Source of the DNA: a virus
DNA length: 64,000 bases
IMG/VR virus record: IMGVR_UViG_3300044535_000725
Coordinates: 1-64,000 of that record
Reading direction: 5' to 3' (one strand)
Shown: positions 9,033 to 28,399 of the stretch, in pieces
Layout of the letters: each line of letters starts with the position of its first letter
How positions within the stretch are numbered: position 1 is the stretch's first letter
Translations under genes and position numbers: made by a program
The notes under the pieces: generated by a model
Seen by the model: only the letters and a program-made list of their open reading frames with translations
Told to the model about the DNA's origin: nothing
The model's database searches: none

Positions 9033-10792
9033 TTCAAATTAAAAACTTAACTGTTCGAAATTTCATGAGCGTGGGCAATGCTACGCAAGGTGTTGACTTT
9101 GATCGCACAGACCTTACACTTGTTCTAGGCGAAAACTTAGACCTTGGTGGTGACGGCTCGCGCAATGGCACAGGCAAAACCACAATCATCAATGCGTTAA
9201 GTTATGCCTTGTTTGGACAGGCATTAAGCAACATTCGCAAAGACAACTTGGTAAACAAAACCAACGCCAAGGGCATGCTAGTCAGTGTTGATCTTGACGT
9301 TAACAGCATTTCCTATCGTATTGAACGTGGACGCAAACCCAATGTGCTGAGATTTTATGTAAACAATCAAGAAAAAACAGCCACTGACGAAGCACAAGGT
9401 GATTCAAGAGAAACACAAGACGAGATTGAACGCATGCTTGGTATGAGCCATGACATGTTTCAACACATTGTAGGCTTGAACACTTACACTCCGCCGTTTC
9501 TCAGTTTAAAGGCCAATGAACAACGTGTGATCATTGAACAGTTGCTGGGCATTACATTGCTGAGTGAAAAAGCTGATCGTATCAAAGAACTCAATCGTCA
9601 AACTAAAGATGGCATTGCGCAAGAAGAAATGCGTATTCGAGCCACACAAGAAGCCAACAAGCGAATTGAAGAACAAATTGAAAGTCTACGCAAACGTCAA
9701 ACCTTGTGGGTTAAAAAACAAAATGAAGACTGTGCGAATTTTGAACAAGCCATAGCTGACCTTGAACACATTGACATTGACGTTGAAGTACAAGCGCACA
9801 GAGATTTAGAAGCATTCCATGTACGGAAAAAAGCCATAGATGATGCTACTCGTTATATCCGTCAGATAGATGCTGATGATGTCAAACAACAAAAACTGTT
9901 GGACAAACTCCGAACTGAGATTACAGCACTAGACGATCACAAGTGCCATAGTTGTGGTCAGGACTTGCATGACAACAAACAAGATGAACTCAAACAAGCC
10001 AAAGAAGATCTAGTAAAAGAAACTGCTTTACAACTTTTGGCCAACGACACACAGCGTCAAGGACACCAAGACATGTTGACACAGGTGGGTGCGTTGGGCA
10101 CAGCACCCACGGTGTTTTATGACACCTTGGAAGATGCATTAAATCATCGCAATACCTTGAGCACACTTCGCACTAGTTTGGAAGCTCGTCGCAGTGAAAC
10201 TGACCCTTACACTGAACAGATTTCTGACATGCAGGGACAAGCTCTGCAGGTTGTAAGTTACGATCATTTGAATGAGCTAACTAGATTGCAAGAACATCAA
10301 GACTTCTTGCTCAAACTGCTAACATCCAAAGACAGTTTTGTTCGTAAGAAAATTATTGATCAAAACTTGAGCTATCTCAATCAGCGGCTCACACACTACT
10401 TGGATAGAATTGGATTACCGCACACAGTTAAATTCATGAACGACCTTACTGTGAGCATTGAAGAACTGGGCCGTGAGCTAGACTTTGATAATTTAAGTCG
10501 AGGCGAACGTAACCGACTGATTCTCAGCATGAGCTGGGCATTCCGTGACGTGTGGGAAAGTTTGTACAGTCCTATTAATCTGTTGTTCATTGATGAACTC
10601 ATTGACAACGGCTTGGACACACAGGGCGTGGAGAATGCTTTGGGCCTGCTGAAGAAGATGAGTCGTGAGCGTCACAAGAGTATTTGGCTTGTGAGTCACA
10701 GAGACGAGCTGGCCGGTCGTGTGGAGAACATTCTCAAGGTTATCAAAGAAAACGGGTTTACCAGCTACAATACGGATGTTGAACTTGCGTGA
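9029..10792 (+). CDS. gp46: Recombination endonuclease subunit gp46 (Rad50-like ATPase)
   Basis: This is the SMC-type ATPase partner of gp47. The Walker A motif GSRNGTGKTT is at residues 43-52. Long coiled-coil arms flank a zinc hook CHSC (C306 and C309), preceded by DDHK. The ABC signature is NLSRGERNRL near residue 489 and Walker B is LLFIDELIDNGLD near 520. A C-terminal SHRDE gives the switch histidine. The 587 residues are close to T4 gp46 (560). It is coupled to gp47 at its start, and the next gene begins inside its 3' end. Confidence 0.93.
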   Translation: MIQIKNLTVRNFMSVGNATQGVDFDRTDLTLVLGENLDLGGDGSRNGTGKTTIINALSYALFGQALSNIRKDNLVNKTNAKGMLVSVDLDVNSISYRIERGRKPNVLRFYVNNQEKTATDEAQGDSRETQDEIERMLGMSHDMFQHIVGLNTYTPPFLSLKANEQRVIIEQLLGITLLSEKADRIKELNRQTKDGIAQEEMRIRATQEANKRIEEQIESLRKRQTLWVKKQNEDCANFEQAIADLEHIDIDVEVQAHRDLEAFHVRKKAIDDATRYIRQIDADDVKQQKLLDKLRTEITALDDHKCHSCGQDLHDNKQDELKQAKEDLVKETALQLLANDTQRQGHQDMLTQVGALGTAPTVFYDTLEDALNHRNTLSTLRTSLEARRSETDPYTEQISDMQGQALQVVSYDHLNELTRLQEHQDFLLKLLTSKDSFVRKKIIDQNLSYLNQRLTHYLDRIGLPHTVKFMNDLTVSIEELGRELDFDNLSRGERNRLILSMSWAFRDVWESLYSPINLLFIDELIDNGLDTQGVENALGLLKKMSRERHKSIWLVSHRDELAGRVENILKVIKENGFTSYNTDVELA

Positions 10793-11645
10793 CATAAAAG
10801 TATTACACCTAGAGCCCACAGACGTATGCCAAGCCGCATGTGCGTTGTGTGCTAGAGAAACTGACACGAACTTTAAAAAAGATCGTCAGCATCATCTCTC
10901 TATGGATCAGATACTACAAATGTTTGATGCTGAATCTATTACCAAACTTGACAAGATGTTCATGTGCGGCAATTATGGTGATCCTGCGGCAGGTAAACAC
11001 ACATTAAACATTTGTCAAGAATTCCGCAAACTTAATAAAAACATTGTGCTTGGCATGAATACCAACGGTGCTTTGCAAAATACATTTTGGTGGTTTGAAC
11101 TGGGACGATTGTTTAATCAATCACAAGATTACGTTGTGTTTAGTATTGATGGATTGGAAAGTACCAATCATGTTTACAGAAAAAATGTCACATGGTCTAA
11201 GATAATGCAAAACGTAACTGCATTTGTAGAAGCCGGCGGATCAGCACACTGGGACATGTTGGTTTACCGACACAATCAAGATCAAGTTGAAGAATGCGAA
11301 CAACTGGCCCGAGACATGGGTTTCAAATGGTTTAGAGCCAAGGTGTCAAAGCGTGGGTTTACAAACAGACTTGAACAACCAATTGGATGGCAGGTGCCAA
11401 ACGTAAAATCAATCAAGGTCAATTGTCATGCTCTCAATGAGCAAAGTCTATACATTGACGCCCAGAGCCGCACAAGTCCTTGTTGCTGGCTTGGTGCTAG
11501 GCAAAAGGACTTTGTGACAGATTTTAAAGAAGTAGAAAATTCTTGGGCCAGTTTGCAACCCAACATTGTATGCCTAGACACTTGTGGCACTACTGCGGTG
11601 GGCACCAGCTTTAGTCAACAATGGCAACGAGAGGTACAGCTATGA
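10776..11645 (+). CDS. Radical SAM protein, second of three
   Basis: The cluster-binding motif CQAACALC (C18, C22, C25 from this start) follows LHLEPTDV, the usual first strand of the radical SAM barrel. Later segments CGNYGDPA (in place of GGEP), GMNTNGAL and FSIDGLEST fit barrel strands 2-4. A PCCW near residue 235 and C-terminal cysteines suggest a SPASM-like auxiliary cluster. I chose the ATG at 10776 because the longer reading from 10719 overlaps gp46 by 74 bases and only adds residues without family character. The 290-residue protein is tail to head with the next radical SAM gene (ATGA overlap). Substrate unknown. Confidence 0.8.
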   Translation: MLNLRDIKVLHLEPTDVCQAACALCARETDTNFKKDRQHHLSMDQILQMFDAESITKLDKMFMCGNYGDPAAGKHTLNICQEFRKLNKNIVLGMNTNGALQNTFWWFELGRLFNQSQDYVVFSIDGLESTNHVYRKNVTWSKIMQNVTAFVEAGGSAHWDMLVYRHNQDQVEECEQLARDMGFKWFRAKVSKRGFTNRLEQPIGWQVPNVKSIKVNCHALNEQSLYIDAQSRTSPCCWLGARQKDFVTDFKEVENSWASLQPNIVCLDTCGTTAVGTSFSQQWQREVQL

Positions 11646-12649
11646 TAGCCTGGGATCACTGGCATATCGAACCCAGCAGTATATGTGCCTTAAAATGCCC
11701 AAGGTGCCCAAGAGCTGAGCTACCTGAAACTCTGCTAAACAAACAACTTACGTTGAATTTTTTTCGTAAGCAGATTGGAGCAGAAGTGGTGTCAAAAATT
11801 AAAAAAATCACTTTCTGTGGCAATGACGGAGACCCTATATACTGTCGAGAATTCCTAGACATCTGTCGTTGGATTAAGAAAACCAATCCCAAAATACAAC
11901 TGGTGGTGATCACCAATGGCAGTTACAAGCCTGTGCATTGGTGGACAGAATTGGGTGAAATTCTCAATCATGACGACGAAGTGCATTGGAGCCTTGACGG
12001 CTGGGACAATCATAGCAACATTCAGTATAGAGTTCACAGCGACTGGATCAGCATAATGCACGGCATTGAAGCATTTTGCACTGCAAACACATCAACATAT
12101 CGTGTCTGGGCTGCCATTGCATTTAGATTCAACCAAGACAACTTAGATAAAATGCAGTCCTTTGCTAGAGACTTAAAATTTGACTGCTTTCAACTTACAA
12201 AATCTACAAAATTTGGTAGCAAGTATCCCAACGCCTATGGGGCAGTGGACGATCTTGAACCCACTGATTCACAGTTGATAGCATCAGGACATAGATACGA
12301 GCGCGAAAGCACTCAGCTTAACCCAAGGCCAAGACCTGGGCAATCTCTCAAAATGCTGTTTCAACAACGTGCTAGCACACTGAACGGTTATGCAGGGATT
12401 TGCTTGATTGGAAACAAAGGTGTTTTTGTCAACAGTCAAGGAGAATTTTATCCCTGTTGTTGGACAGCCAATCGCTACGATCACAACCAGGCATGGCACG
12501 GACGGTTTAACCTAAACACAAAAACATTTAACGAAATCATACAAGATCCGTTTTGGAGTACTGACTTTTTAAAATTCAACAGTTTGGAATGTCAAACCAA
12601 ATGTACTCCAGACCGTTTATCTGACACTTCACACACATTAGAATGGTAA
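11642..12649 (+). CDS. Radical SAM protein, third of three
   Basis: The motif CALKCPRC (C15, C19, C22) follows WHIEPSSI. Downstream segments FCGNDGDPIYC, VVITNGSYK and WSLDGWDN fit the barrel, and GEFYPCCWTAN followed by CQTKC near the end resembles a SPASM auxiliary cluster. It is clearly a paralogue of the preceding gene: both share EP(T/S)..C, CGN.GDP, NTNG/TNGS and PCCW. The ATG at 11642 overlaps the upstream TGA by four bases; an earlier start at 11621 would overlap by 25. Its substrate is unknown, but two coupled paralogues suggest either sequential or heterodimeric action. Confidence 0.8.
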   Translation: MIAWDHWHIEPSSICALKCPRCPRAELPETLLNKQLTLNFFRKQIGAEVVSKIKKITFCGNDGDPIYCREFLDICRWIKKTNPKIQLVVITNGSYKPVHWWTELGEILNHDDEVHWSLDGWDNHSNIQYRVHSDWISIMHGIEAFCTANTSTYRVWAAIAFRFNQDNLDKMQSFARDLKFDCFQLTKSTKFGSKYPNAYGAVDDLEPTDSQLIASGHRYERESTQLNPRPRPGQSLKMLFQQRASTLNGYAGICLIGNKGVFVNSQGEFYPCCWTANRYDHNQAWHGRFNLNTKTFNEIIQDPFWSTDFLKFNSLECQTKCTPDRLSDTSHTLEW

Positions 12650-12687: not shown

Positions 12688-13122
12688 ATGACATGGCTAT
12701 ACAACAATCAACTGGTGGAAACTCTTCCCGAAGATTGCGTGGGCTTTGTCTACTTGATTACAAACATCACAAATCAACGCAAATACATAGGCAAAAAATT
12801 AGCCAAATTTTCTAAGACTACTCAAAAGACAGTCAAACTCAAAAACGGCAACAAGAAAAAACAAAAAATCCGCACCAAGGTGGACAGTGATTGGCGTGAC
12901 TACTACGGGTCTAGCCCTGAACTAACTAAGGACGTGGAACAGATAGGCAAAGAAAACTTCACTCGCGAAATACTTTACTATTGTAACTCCAAATCAGAAT
13001 GCAGTTATATCGAAGCAAGAGAACAATTTTCTCGGCGTGTGCTTGAAAGCAAGGACTATTACAATGGTCACATTCAAGTTCGCGTCCATGGCAGCCACAT
13101 AATCAACAAACTAAGCAGTTAA
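12688..13122 (+). CDS. GIY-YIG nuclease-like protein
   Basis: The start of this 144-residue protein carries a GIY-YIG-type pair, FVYLITN (residues 20-26) and KYIGKK (32-37). A basic stretch follows (KLKNGNKKKQKIRTK), then DWRDYYGSS, NFTREILYYC and YIEAREQF. This arrangement is typical of small phage GIY-YIG proteins related to the T4 Seg homing endonucleases. The host gene is not interrupted on either side, so if it is a homing enzyme it is free-standing. No good Shine-Dalgarno site is seen. The gene ends one base into a highly structured non-coding region. Confidence 0.65.
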   Translation: MTWLYNNQLVETLPEDCVGFVYLITNITNQRKYIGKKLAKFSKTTQKTVKLKNGNKKKQKIRTKVDSDWRDYYGSSPELTKDVEQIGKENFTREILYYCNSKSECSYIEAREQFSRRVLESKDYYNGHIQVRVHGSHIINKLSS

Positions 13123-13565
13123 GACTTGCACAGGTCAATTTCATGTGCCCTAGACCTGGATCTCGGATCGCAGGGAGTGGAAGCCTCGCCGCGCTAGCGA
13201 GCACTCAATCACTATCCTTGACAGGACGACGATCGCAAAATGCCGCGGTTTGATTGTTTGAACAGAATTTTTTAGGCCCAAAGATGTACTAGTGATAGTA
13301 CAGGTTTGATACATGTGTTAGCGTATGTGTGTCAAGCTGCCGTTGTAAAGACAAAATGAGCAGGTACCGGACAACCGCCTGTGCAATTGATTATAGTGAA
13401 TTATAGTCAATTATAGTTTGAACGCTAAGTGACTGTGCTACTCGGATGATGCTACAGATCTTATCTTTGCCCTGTGCGGGCAAAGTGTGACCGATTAATC
13501 TAGATGATACTTAAAACAAACGTTGATGAACGAAGTGATATCAACAGACTTGCGTAGCAAGTCTT
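13121..13565 (+). ncRNA. Candidate large structured RNA, about 445 nt, no known family recognised
   Basis: This is the only gap over 300 bases without a gene. Its ends are complementary: AAGACTTGC (13121-13129) pairs with GCAAGTCTT (13557-13565). Inside are CAGGTC/GACCTG (13131-13136 with 13153-13158); GATCG/CGATC (13166-13170 with 13230-13234); a two-part stem GAGTG/CACTC plus CTCGC/GCGAG (13175-13206); GTACTA-GTGA-TAGTAC (13286-13301), with a GNRA loop; TTGATACAT/ATGTG..TCAA (13306-13335); CAGG..CGG-ACAA-CCG-CCTG (13361-13381); CTTTGCCC/GGGCAAAG (13465-13485); GTTGAT/ATCAAC (13522-13545). A loop (13318-13324) matches 13422-13428 over seven bases, a possible pseudoknot. The GNRA loop and a U-G pair favour the plus strand. 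No tRNA, tmRNA or intron core was recognised. Confidence 0.6.
13390..13419 (+). repeat. Three tandem 10-base repeats ATTATAGT(NN)
   Basis: ATTATAGTGA, ATTATAGTCA and ATTATAGTTT follow directly in the middle of the structured non-coding element. They are AT-rich in an otherwise GC-balanced stretch and could be an unpaired linker in the RNA or a protein-binding site. Confidence 0.8.
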
Positions 13566-13567
13566 TA
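13546..13567 (+). terminator. Hairpin between convergent units, terminator-like
   Basis: AGACTTGC-GTA-GCAAGTCT (13546-13564) is a perfect eight-base stem followed by TTA. It lies next to the stop codon of the minus-strand nucleosidase gene and at the 3' end of the RNA candidate. Its right arm could instead pair with 13121-13129, so two alternative folds are possible. The U-tract is short. Confidence 0.45.
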
Positions 13568-14098
13568 TAACAAGTTTAACTCTTTGAGTTTGTTGACATA
13601 ATGTGATTGCCCTTGAGCTACAGAATTACGCCAATCAGTATTGGCTGTGGCATTGGCTTGATCACTAACATATTTGAAACAAAGAAATTCCACGTGATAT
13701 TTTTCACATGCTTTGGCTATGGAATAGGCTTCCATGTCTACTAGATCTGCTGGTATGTGCAGTGGTGAGTTCATCACAAAGTTATCGCCTGTACTGCATG
13801 TTAATCCTGGTGTGCCAATTGCTATGCTGGATTCAAATGGTGTTTGTCCTGATTCACATCCCAGTCCTTCACAACTCATGTCTCTTTGCACAAATTGAGT
13901 GCATTGATGTAGGCCAGTGCTCACAGTAATGCCCCCGGCTGTGCCAAAGTTGATCACACGTCGGGGACGGTATTTTGCAATGACTTCGCCGGCTGTGATT
14001 GCGGCATTGACCTTGCCCACGCCTGTATAAAACAAGTTCATCATGTGGCCAAGGTCGGGCGCTTCTTCCCGAATGGCAATCAACACAAGGTCATTCAT
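13565..14098 (-). CDS. MTA/SAH nucleosidase-like protein (PNP/UDP phosphorylase superfamily)
   Basis: Family enzymes hydrolyse methylthioadenosine, S-adenosylhomocysteine and also 5'-deoxyadenosine to adenine. The diagnostic parts are TGVGKVNAA (25-33), NFGTAGG (50-56), DMEA (121-124) and VSDQA (144-148). The catalytic residues of E. coli MTAN have counterparts: E11/E12 for Glu12, E123 for Glu174 and D146 for Asp197. At 177 residues it is about 55 shorter than the E. coli enzyme, with loops lost between strands; whether it is active is inference. It is the last gene of the minus-strand operon that begins with gp26, and it overlaps the preceding gene by ATGA. Its product could relieve inhibition of the radical SAM enzymes encoded nearby. 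Confidence 0.8.
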   Translation of the reverse strand: MNDLVLIAIREEAPDLGHMMNLFYTGVGKVNAAITAGEVIAKYRPRRVINFGTAGGITVSTGLHQCTQFVQRDMSCEGLGCESGQTPFESSIAIGTPGLTCSTGDNFVMNSPLHIPADLVDMEAYSIAKACEKYHVEFLCFKYVSDQANATANTDWRNSVAQGQSHYVNKLKELNLL

Positions 14099-27557: not shown

Positions 27558-27649
27558 CTTGTCAACACAATAGGGTGTTTTATGCTGAGACTAATACCCA
27601 CAGCGTAGCGACTAGAACTCGCATCGGACTTCTTTAAGGAGAAAACAAA

Positions 27650-28399
27650 ATGGGTCGTCCTCTAAAAATACAAAAATCAAGCACTGGATCAGGCAACAGC
27701 GGCGCAGCCGTTGGCGTGGATCTTGGCTATCCTAACTTCAACAGTTTAACAAATCCTGTTTTTAACAGCCCAGTTCAAACTCTAAACGGCACTCAATATC
27801 TTGGTGTTGTTGGCGGCGCAGGCCCTACAGATACCCCAAGCGCAACCAATCCACGTGTTGACGTTACTGTTAACATTGCCAACCCTTCGGGCACAGGTAT
27901 TGGTGTGGCACAAGGCTATATCATCCGTCAAAAAGGTTCTCGCAAATATCTAGTGGGTGATGTTACTGGTGTCAACGACGGAAGTTTTGTTGTTGGCCAG
28001 GCTTATCAAATTGTGTCTGTGGGCACCACTGATTGGACAGCCGCTGGCGCACCCGGTAACTTTGGTGTAGGCACTGTGTTCACTGCCAGTTCAGTTGGCG
28101 GAGCAGGTTCGGGTACCGTTAATTCTGTAGGTGTGTGTGTTTTGACAAATTCTGCAACCCCAACAGTGGGATTGATGAGCATCAGCTATATTGATGACGC
28201 TTCATCTGAAGTGTTTATTTCCAAGTTGTCCAACAAATTCTTGTTGGGCTTTGAAGGCGGAAATGGATTCACTGCGGCAGAAGTTGTTGCTGACACACGT
28301 CAAGTGGCCAACTTCTTTACTGATGAAGGCTCAGTTATCAAGTCTGGTACTGCACAAACCACTATCAACGTGGCTTTGATACAGAACGTTACTTCTTAA
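27650..28399 (+). CDS. Virion structural protein, function unknown
   Basis: The 249-residue product begins MGRPLKIQK and is rich in Gly, Ser, Thr and Val. The segment from about residue 115 (FVVGQAYQIVSVGTTDWTAAGAP and following GTVFTASSVGGAGSGTV) is a beta-rich motif that I know to recur in phage structural proteins. The C-terminus has KFLLGFEGGNGF. It could be a head decoration or fibre-associated protein. A strong AAGGAG site precedes the start and a terminator-like hairpin follows. Confidence 0.6.
   Translation: MGRPLKIQKSSTGSGNSGAAVGVDLGYPNFNSLTNPVFNSPVQTLNGTQYLGVVGGAGPTDTPSATNPRVDVTVNIANPSGTGIGVAQGYIIRQKGSRKYLVGDVTGVNDGSFVVGQAYQIVSVGTTDWTAAGAPGNFGVGTVFTASSVGGAGSGTVNSVGVCVLTNSATPTVGLMSISYIDDASSEVFISKLSNKFLLGFEGGNGFTAAEVVADTRQVANFFTDEGSVIKSGTAQTTINVALIQNVTS

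Follow-up and report, generated by a model that had tools for sequence, protein, structure and literature searches.

A structured phage RNA of about 390 nt that extends the Polynucleobacter-1 motif and ends in a concerted tandem module

The motif Polynucleobacter-1, found in Burkholderiales and in fresh water, was described in 2010 by Weinberg et al. as 'probably RNA, probably cis-regulatory' (PMC2864571), and has since stood in Rfam as the orphan family RF01718. Much larger RNAs are known from phages. In the passages of PMC12286853 that describe them, GOLLD is a large structured RNA with a conserved 3′ and a variable 5′ region, to which no function is assigned, and ROOL is likewise large, has multiple pseudoknots and lacks a known partner. 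Noncoding RNAs are also abundant in the contest between the lytic phage ICP1 and its PLE satellites, where both sides make them, as distinct transcripts (PMC7567579).

The locus analysed here lies on a 64,860-base virus contig of IMG/VR with T4-type genes (SbcC/SbcD-like gp46/47, T4 baseplate), the first 64,000 nt of which are referred to as the window. It resembles Polynucleobacter-1 in its freshwater origin, and the Burkholderiales loci of the present analysis match RF01718 too. However, the family model ends at 141 nt, whereas here about 250 further structured nucleotides follow, with two pseudoknots and a tandem module; furthermore, the motif is common in viral contigs, but matched in only five of 399 sampled Burkholderiales genomes, one of these below the family cut-off. 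Like GOLLD, the RNA is large, structured and phage-borne, with a conserved 3′ part, a less constant 5′ part and a function likewise unassigned; in contrast to many GOLLD members, which are longer than 800 nt and located near tRNA islands, the window contains no tRNA detectable with ARAGORN, and the 3′ module is duplicated. With ROOL it shares size, multiple pseudoknots and the lack of a known partner, but its ends are unpaired and the Rfam ROOL model does not match. Unlike the transcripts of ICP1 and PLE, a single RNA family, known here from sequence alone, appears in both the phages and the candidate satellites.

Extent and structure of the RNA

A preliminary description, made without database searches, had proposed a novel, highly structured plus-strand RNA of 445 nt between 13121 and 13565, free of any notable reading frame, and had suggested an Rfam covariance search and a collection of homologues as checks. 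The Rfam search (cmscan) assigned 13123-13259 on the plus strand to the complete RF01718 model (positions 1-141) at 118.1 bits (E 5.1e-25), well above the family cut-off of 37 bits, and found no family for 13260-13565 even at E up to 1. The element is therefore not wholly new, as its first 137 nt were already catalogued; the novelty first claimed for it holds for the remaining ~250 nt. An alignment of 55 non-redundant homologues could be extended to about 13513, with conserved structure reaching far beyond the catalogued motif to that point, meaning the structured RNA lies within the interval first proposed, but its conserved core stops short of 13565. On this alignment, RF01718 represents just the 5′ third of an RNA of about 390 nt (approximately 13122-13513). 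No open reading frame of at least 60 amino acids lies between 13122 and 13565, the longest stop-to-stop frame being 55 codons.

Since the minimum free energy lies only modestly below that of shuffled sequences (z -2.1 on the plus and -2.6 on the minus strand), folding energy alone is no proof of an RNA. The comparison of homologues is far more decisive. Across 62 pairs in 12 helices, 97.0% of pairings were standard, against 85.5 ± 0.3% in shuffled and 37-44% in slid alignments. Both sides changed in 37 of the 62 pairs (25.2 ± 2.0 when shuffled), double-change cells numbered 369 (90.7 when shuffled), and the covariation score was 0.361 (0.147 when shuffled); none of 500 shuffles attained the observed value of any of these four measures. 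As the 62-pair structure was partly derived from the same sequences, a tree-aware test of all column pairs was added, with substitutions re-placed on the tree as the null, which is our own approximation of R-scape. Thirteen column pairs were significant at E ≤0.05: nine were standard base pairs, of which five fall outside RF01718; three were pairs of equal bases, in the tandem module discussed below; and the last, columns 93-105, set C/U against U/C. The homologues were gathered by sequence patterns, so the conservation of the pattern bases themselves follows from the way of collection, but most of the covarying helices lie outside them. When a covariance model of the 3′ part was trained on 29 relatives, the window being left out, it recovered the window at 107 bits (E 1.5e-22). 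The suggested check by covariation was thus passed; the existence, strand, extent and structure of the RNA can be regarded as established, and we are almost certain that the RNA is real, structured and around 390 nt long.

Features of the locus, in window coordinates
Feature	Position	Strand	Evidence and remarks
SegE-like GIY-YIG gene	12688-13122	+	PF19835, 115.6 bits; directly upstream of the RNA
Full-length RNA core, ~390 nt	13122-13513	+	55-homologue alignment, pair counts, tree-aware covariation
5′ domain, RF01718 Polynucleobacter-1	13123-13259	+	Rfam covariance model match
Stem P1	13128-13132/13144-13148	+	4 of 5 pairs change both sides; 99.6% paired
Stem P2	13155-13158/13171-13174 and 13159-13161/13167-13169	+	99.7% paired
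Stem P4	13206-13211/13251-13256	+	Encloses 13216-13217/13224-13225 and P4b 13231-13236/13245-13250; P4 region (13206-13256) 99.4-100% paired, double changes in 7 pairs
Hairpin P5	13286-13301	+	6 bp, GUGA (GNRA) loop 13292-13295; sequence, MFE fold; one stem pair at the same place significant in the tree-aware test (columns 165-175)
Long hairpin P6 (helix 7)	13303-13338	+	MFE fold; loop carries the 5′ strand of P7; all 5 alignable pairs change both sides
Pseudoknot P7 (helix 8)	13318-13324 (TTAGCGT) with 13422-13428 (ACGCTAA)	+	7 of 7 pairs change both sides; 96.8% paired
Pseudoknot P8 (helix 9)	13342-13346 (GTTGT) with 13371-13375 (ACAAC)	+	3′ strand in the loop of hairpin P9; 97.5% paired, double changes in 3 pairs; significant pair in the tree-aware test
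Stem P10	13355-13359/13416-13420	+	Encloses hairpin P9 13362-13364/13378-13380; 5 of 5 pairs change both sides, the strongest covariation in the alignment
Module copy 1	13440-13451	+	ACUC-[GGAUGAU]-G; variable 7-mer 13444-13450
Hairpin P11	13465-13485	+	CUUUGCCC/GGGCAAAG; between the module copies; 94% paired
Module copy 2	13498-13509	+	AUCU-[AGAUGAU]-A; variable 7-mer 13502-13508
Two variable 3′ hairpins	13522-13527/13540-13545 and 13546-13553/13557-13564	+	Sequence
Phosphorylase-superfamily gene	13565-14098	-	Stop at 13565, bounding the RNA interval

Individual parts of the preliminary description fared differently. The GUGA-looped hairpin is present, with GUGA or GCGA loops recurring there in many relatives, as is the 8-bp stem 13465-13472/13478-13485. 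The nine base pairs said to join the ends (13121-13129 with 13557-13565) are not conserved: all nine form in only two of 53 homologues, a distribution like that of shuffled partners. These paired ends were also rejected on structural grounds, as their 5′ strand overlaps the covarying stem P1 and their 3′ strand is part of the local 8-bp hairpin at 13546-13564. Paired ends had been the basis for likening the element to GOLLD and ROOL. The earlier failure to match it to either was borne out by Rfam, neither model being found at the locus. A further helix, P12, which would connect the stretches preceding the two repeats, was discarded, with pairing no better than in shuffles. The sequence of the 3′ hairpins is not conserved, similar hairpins being recognised in relatives by eye; 13522-13564 is either the 3′ end of the RNA or a spacer.

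The 5′ domain can diverge or be replaced. Four loci have diverged 5′ domains still recognised as RF01718 at 69-81 bits. Nine others (class C) have an unrelated 5′ half, in which no Rfam family was matched in the five loci scanned, and three of these nine directly follow SegE; yet their 3′ parts score 42-72 bits with the 3′ model built without the window. Hence the 5′ domain is exchangeable, while the 3′ core is constant. No Rfam family accounts for the ~250 nt of the 3′ part, for the pseudoknots, for the distribution across phages or for the class whose 5′ domain has been swapped.

Genomic setting in phages and Burkholderiales

Well over 150 viral contigs, which may be fragments, carry the RNA; at least 120 match the pattern of the 5′ domain, and at least 120 that of the 3′ part, some of the latter by chance. 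Its copy number and synteny are likewise established. Exactly one copy was present in each of 30 viral records of 33-355 kb, 29 of which have one SegE-like gene, the remaining 81-kb record carrying the RNA with no PF19835 match. The gene order runs gp47, gp46, variable genes, the SegE-like gene, the RNA, a variable gene and a minus-strand baseplate gene. In 105 of 116 loci the gene immediately upstream is SegE, with other genes intervening in several, making SegE the usual, but not an obligate, neighbour. The first downstream gene varies in type and lies on the plus strand in 52 loci and on the minus strand in 48; the position between convergent transcripts remarked on in the preliminary description is thus true of the window, but of only about half of its relatives (48 of 100). 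Among isolated phages, blastn against INPHARED gave no match, and the 3′ model did not match six isolates with SegE homologues.

Several other features of these regions were observed. Within 130 nt after the second repeat, 14 of 53 phage loci contain TATAAATA. Genes just 3′ of the RNA often start with MKIxELLxE or similar (in L042, 447-1245 after the RNA start, and in at least three other loci), beginnings which we take to resemble T4 capsid-targeting peptides. In the window, two consecutive radical SAM-like genes (10719-12649) lie upstream of the RNA, and a freshwater-2 element (RF02980, cis-regulatory; 67.8 bits) occupies 27563-27652, directly before the ORF at 27650-28399.

The presence of the RNA in bacterial elements is also established. 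The 5′ pattern matched 11 contigs of bacterial assemblies, nearly all of them Burkholderiales, with two copies in Limnohabitans sp. Bal53 and three shortened copies among the bacterial loci. A DUF6641-type gene lies divergently to the RNA in almost every locus examined; in several, a small tyrosine recombinase follows downstream, with a larger integrase at a greater distance. Both elements scanned encode a T4-type clamp-loader-like ATPase (phrog_168, E 5e-16 and 2e-21). Three small integrative elements with DUF6641 and integrases (L282, L283 and L285) are candidate satellites of T4-like phages. All 11 bacterial loci scanned have a T4-late-like TAAATA box at 54-69 nt before the RNA, versus none of 53 phage loci, in which no late-promoter box was found within 120 nt upstream. 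The tandem module is kept in all 11 full-length bacterial versions, with six to eight of eight bases alike. These bacterial versions go undetected by the 3′ phage model, so that homology of their 3′ parts is argued from the common layout, the module and the 5′ domain; for the same reason, the failure of that model to find anything in the 399 Burkholderiales genomes is uninformative. A pattern of the bacterial core matched none of the viral contigs scanned.

DUF6641 was rejected as a partner common to both settings, being absent from 23 phage records, in a search that matched no control genome either; hence there is no evident shared protein partner. In some bacterial elements (L283, 8671-9075, and L159) a second small gene starts with MRISEIANAEEQ or MRIDEFASAEEQ, like the N-termini encoded after the RNA in phages, and could be a packaged cargo protein. 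On their gene content and promoter-like box, it is reasonably probable that these elements are satellites of such T4-like phages, in which case they probably carry their version of the RNA to use or mimic that of the phage.

The duplicated module at the 3′ end

The 3′ core is closed by two copies of a short module, approximately 50-60 nt apart, which flank hairpin P11. Of 145 unique loci, 135 have the same variable 7-mer in both copies, across 12 different sequences (GGATAAT, AGATAAT, GGATGAT and GGATGAA among them), identity not having been required of them, and most exceptions appear to be mis-located. The window is among the few loci with unequal copies, GGATGAT against AGATGAT, with a single G/A difference. 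The agreement extends to module positions -6, -5, +8 and +9, which match between copies above every shuffle, whereas CUC/UCU and, mostly, the G/A at +7 differ constantly between copies, as transitions. The concerted change of the two repeats is thereby established, and their equal-base covariation is significant in the tree-aware test.

This pattern is not explained by a third strand pairing with both repeats, a candidate that was rejected: no strand complementary to the 7-mers exceeded chance in the RNA or its flanks (within about 1.5-1.8 kb), and neither the 7-mer nor its complement was enriched in a phage's own locus compared with other loci. Nor is the module a decoy of the CsrA type, as the 7-mer often starts with AGA, GCA or GAA, so no GGA core is maintained. 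Most simply, the two copies would each contact one and the same partner in trans.

Possible function and meaning for phage biology

Our reading is that the RNA, a single-copy structured molecule with a constant place in the genomes of one clade of freshwater T4-like phages, would act in trans as a ribonucleoprotein scaffold or decoy during infection. Its fold combines an exchangeable 5′ domain with a conserved 3′ core containing two pseudoknots, the end of which presents the same 7-nt sequence twice through the tandem module. The two copies would dock the same partner, either a dimeric or repeated phage protein or an RNA in trans, and drift in the specificity of this partner would require both 7-mers to change together. 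Small integrase-bearing Burkholderiales elements carry their own version behind a T4-late-like promoter box. Expression, trans action, partner and satellite role are all inferred. We give an even chance to the overall proposal of a trans-acting phage RNA that docks one partner twice, with satellites bearing a version of their own; docking through the two module copies is, taken separately, a tentative suggestion.

The label given in 2010 would instead make the RNA a cis-regulatory element, located in the SegE operon's 3′ UTR or in the leader of the gene that follows. In most loci the start of the RNA does lie no more than a few bases from the stop codon upstream, and Table 1 of PMC2864571 marks Polynucleobacter-1 'y' ('probably') for cis-regulation. 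However, the changing type and strand of the downstream genes favour free-standing action in trans, as does the fact that SegE can be separated from the RNA by other genes, or be missing. An RNA of ~390 nt with two pseudoknots is moreover large for a bacterial leader, which counts against the same alternative. This work therefore argues for a free-standing RNA, contrary to the earlier label, at least in phages, and we regard cis-regulation as distinctly unlikely. The neighbouring gene might alternatively be the key, with the RNA serving the SegE endonuclease as a guide or intron-like component of a homing system. The two are directly adjacent in 105 of 116 loci, and in 105 of 114 AB-class loci gathered without using that gene; yet a guide RNA or intron for the endonuclease was rejected because the RNA persists where PF19835 is missing. 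Moreover, genes intervene in several loci, six isolate phages have SegE homologues with no match to the 3′ model, the nearby ORFs listed for the bacterial versions include no GIY-YIG gene, and no group I or II intron family was found around the locus at E up to 1. A homing role is accordingly improbable.

An oligomeric RNA cage like those of GOLLD and ROOL, forming a new class of RNA-only assembly, would suit a large, phage-borne RNA with several pseudoknots and no obligate protein neighbour, and the conservation of its 3′ over its 5′ part recalls GOLLD as outlined in PMC12286853. It is nevertheless unlikely, as the Rfam models of both were unmatched (at gathering thresholds over the window, and at E up to 1 around the locus), the RNA is smaller, tRNAs and paired ends are absent, and a duplicated module is not among the GOLLD or ROOL features described in those passages. 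The concerted direct repeats also resemble DNA repeats bound by proteins, raising the alternative that the locus is a site for iterons, recombination or packaging, with incidental RNA structure. The changes on both sides of most pairs, and the fit of G-U pairs and GNRA loops to one strand, make this highly improbable. The preferred reading is still that of a trans-acting RNA with a twice-presented recognition sequence. That one RNA gene is common to lytic T4-like phages and the integrative satellites parasitising them, with its exchangeable 5′ domain, pseudoknotted 3′ core and concerted duplicated recognition module, is a possibility to which we assign somewhat less than an even chance.

No earlier description seems to exist of the ~250 nt beyond RF01718, of the concerted duplicated module or of the relatives in satellite-like bacterial elements. 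What was an orphan bacterial motif in Rfam becomes a widespread, full-length phage RNA with a set place in the genome, correcting both the boundaries and the probable cis-regulatory label of Polynucleobacter-1, and extending the short list of known large structured phage RNAs. The concerted repeat provides a specific, testable handle on what the 7-mer contacts, and the satellite-like relatives offer a route to function through what phage and element share. If the satellite reading is true, the RNA would represent a battleground between phages and their satellites at the level of phage noncoding RNA.
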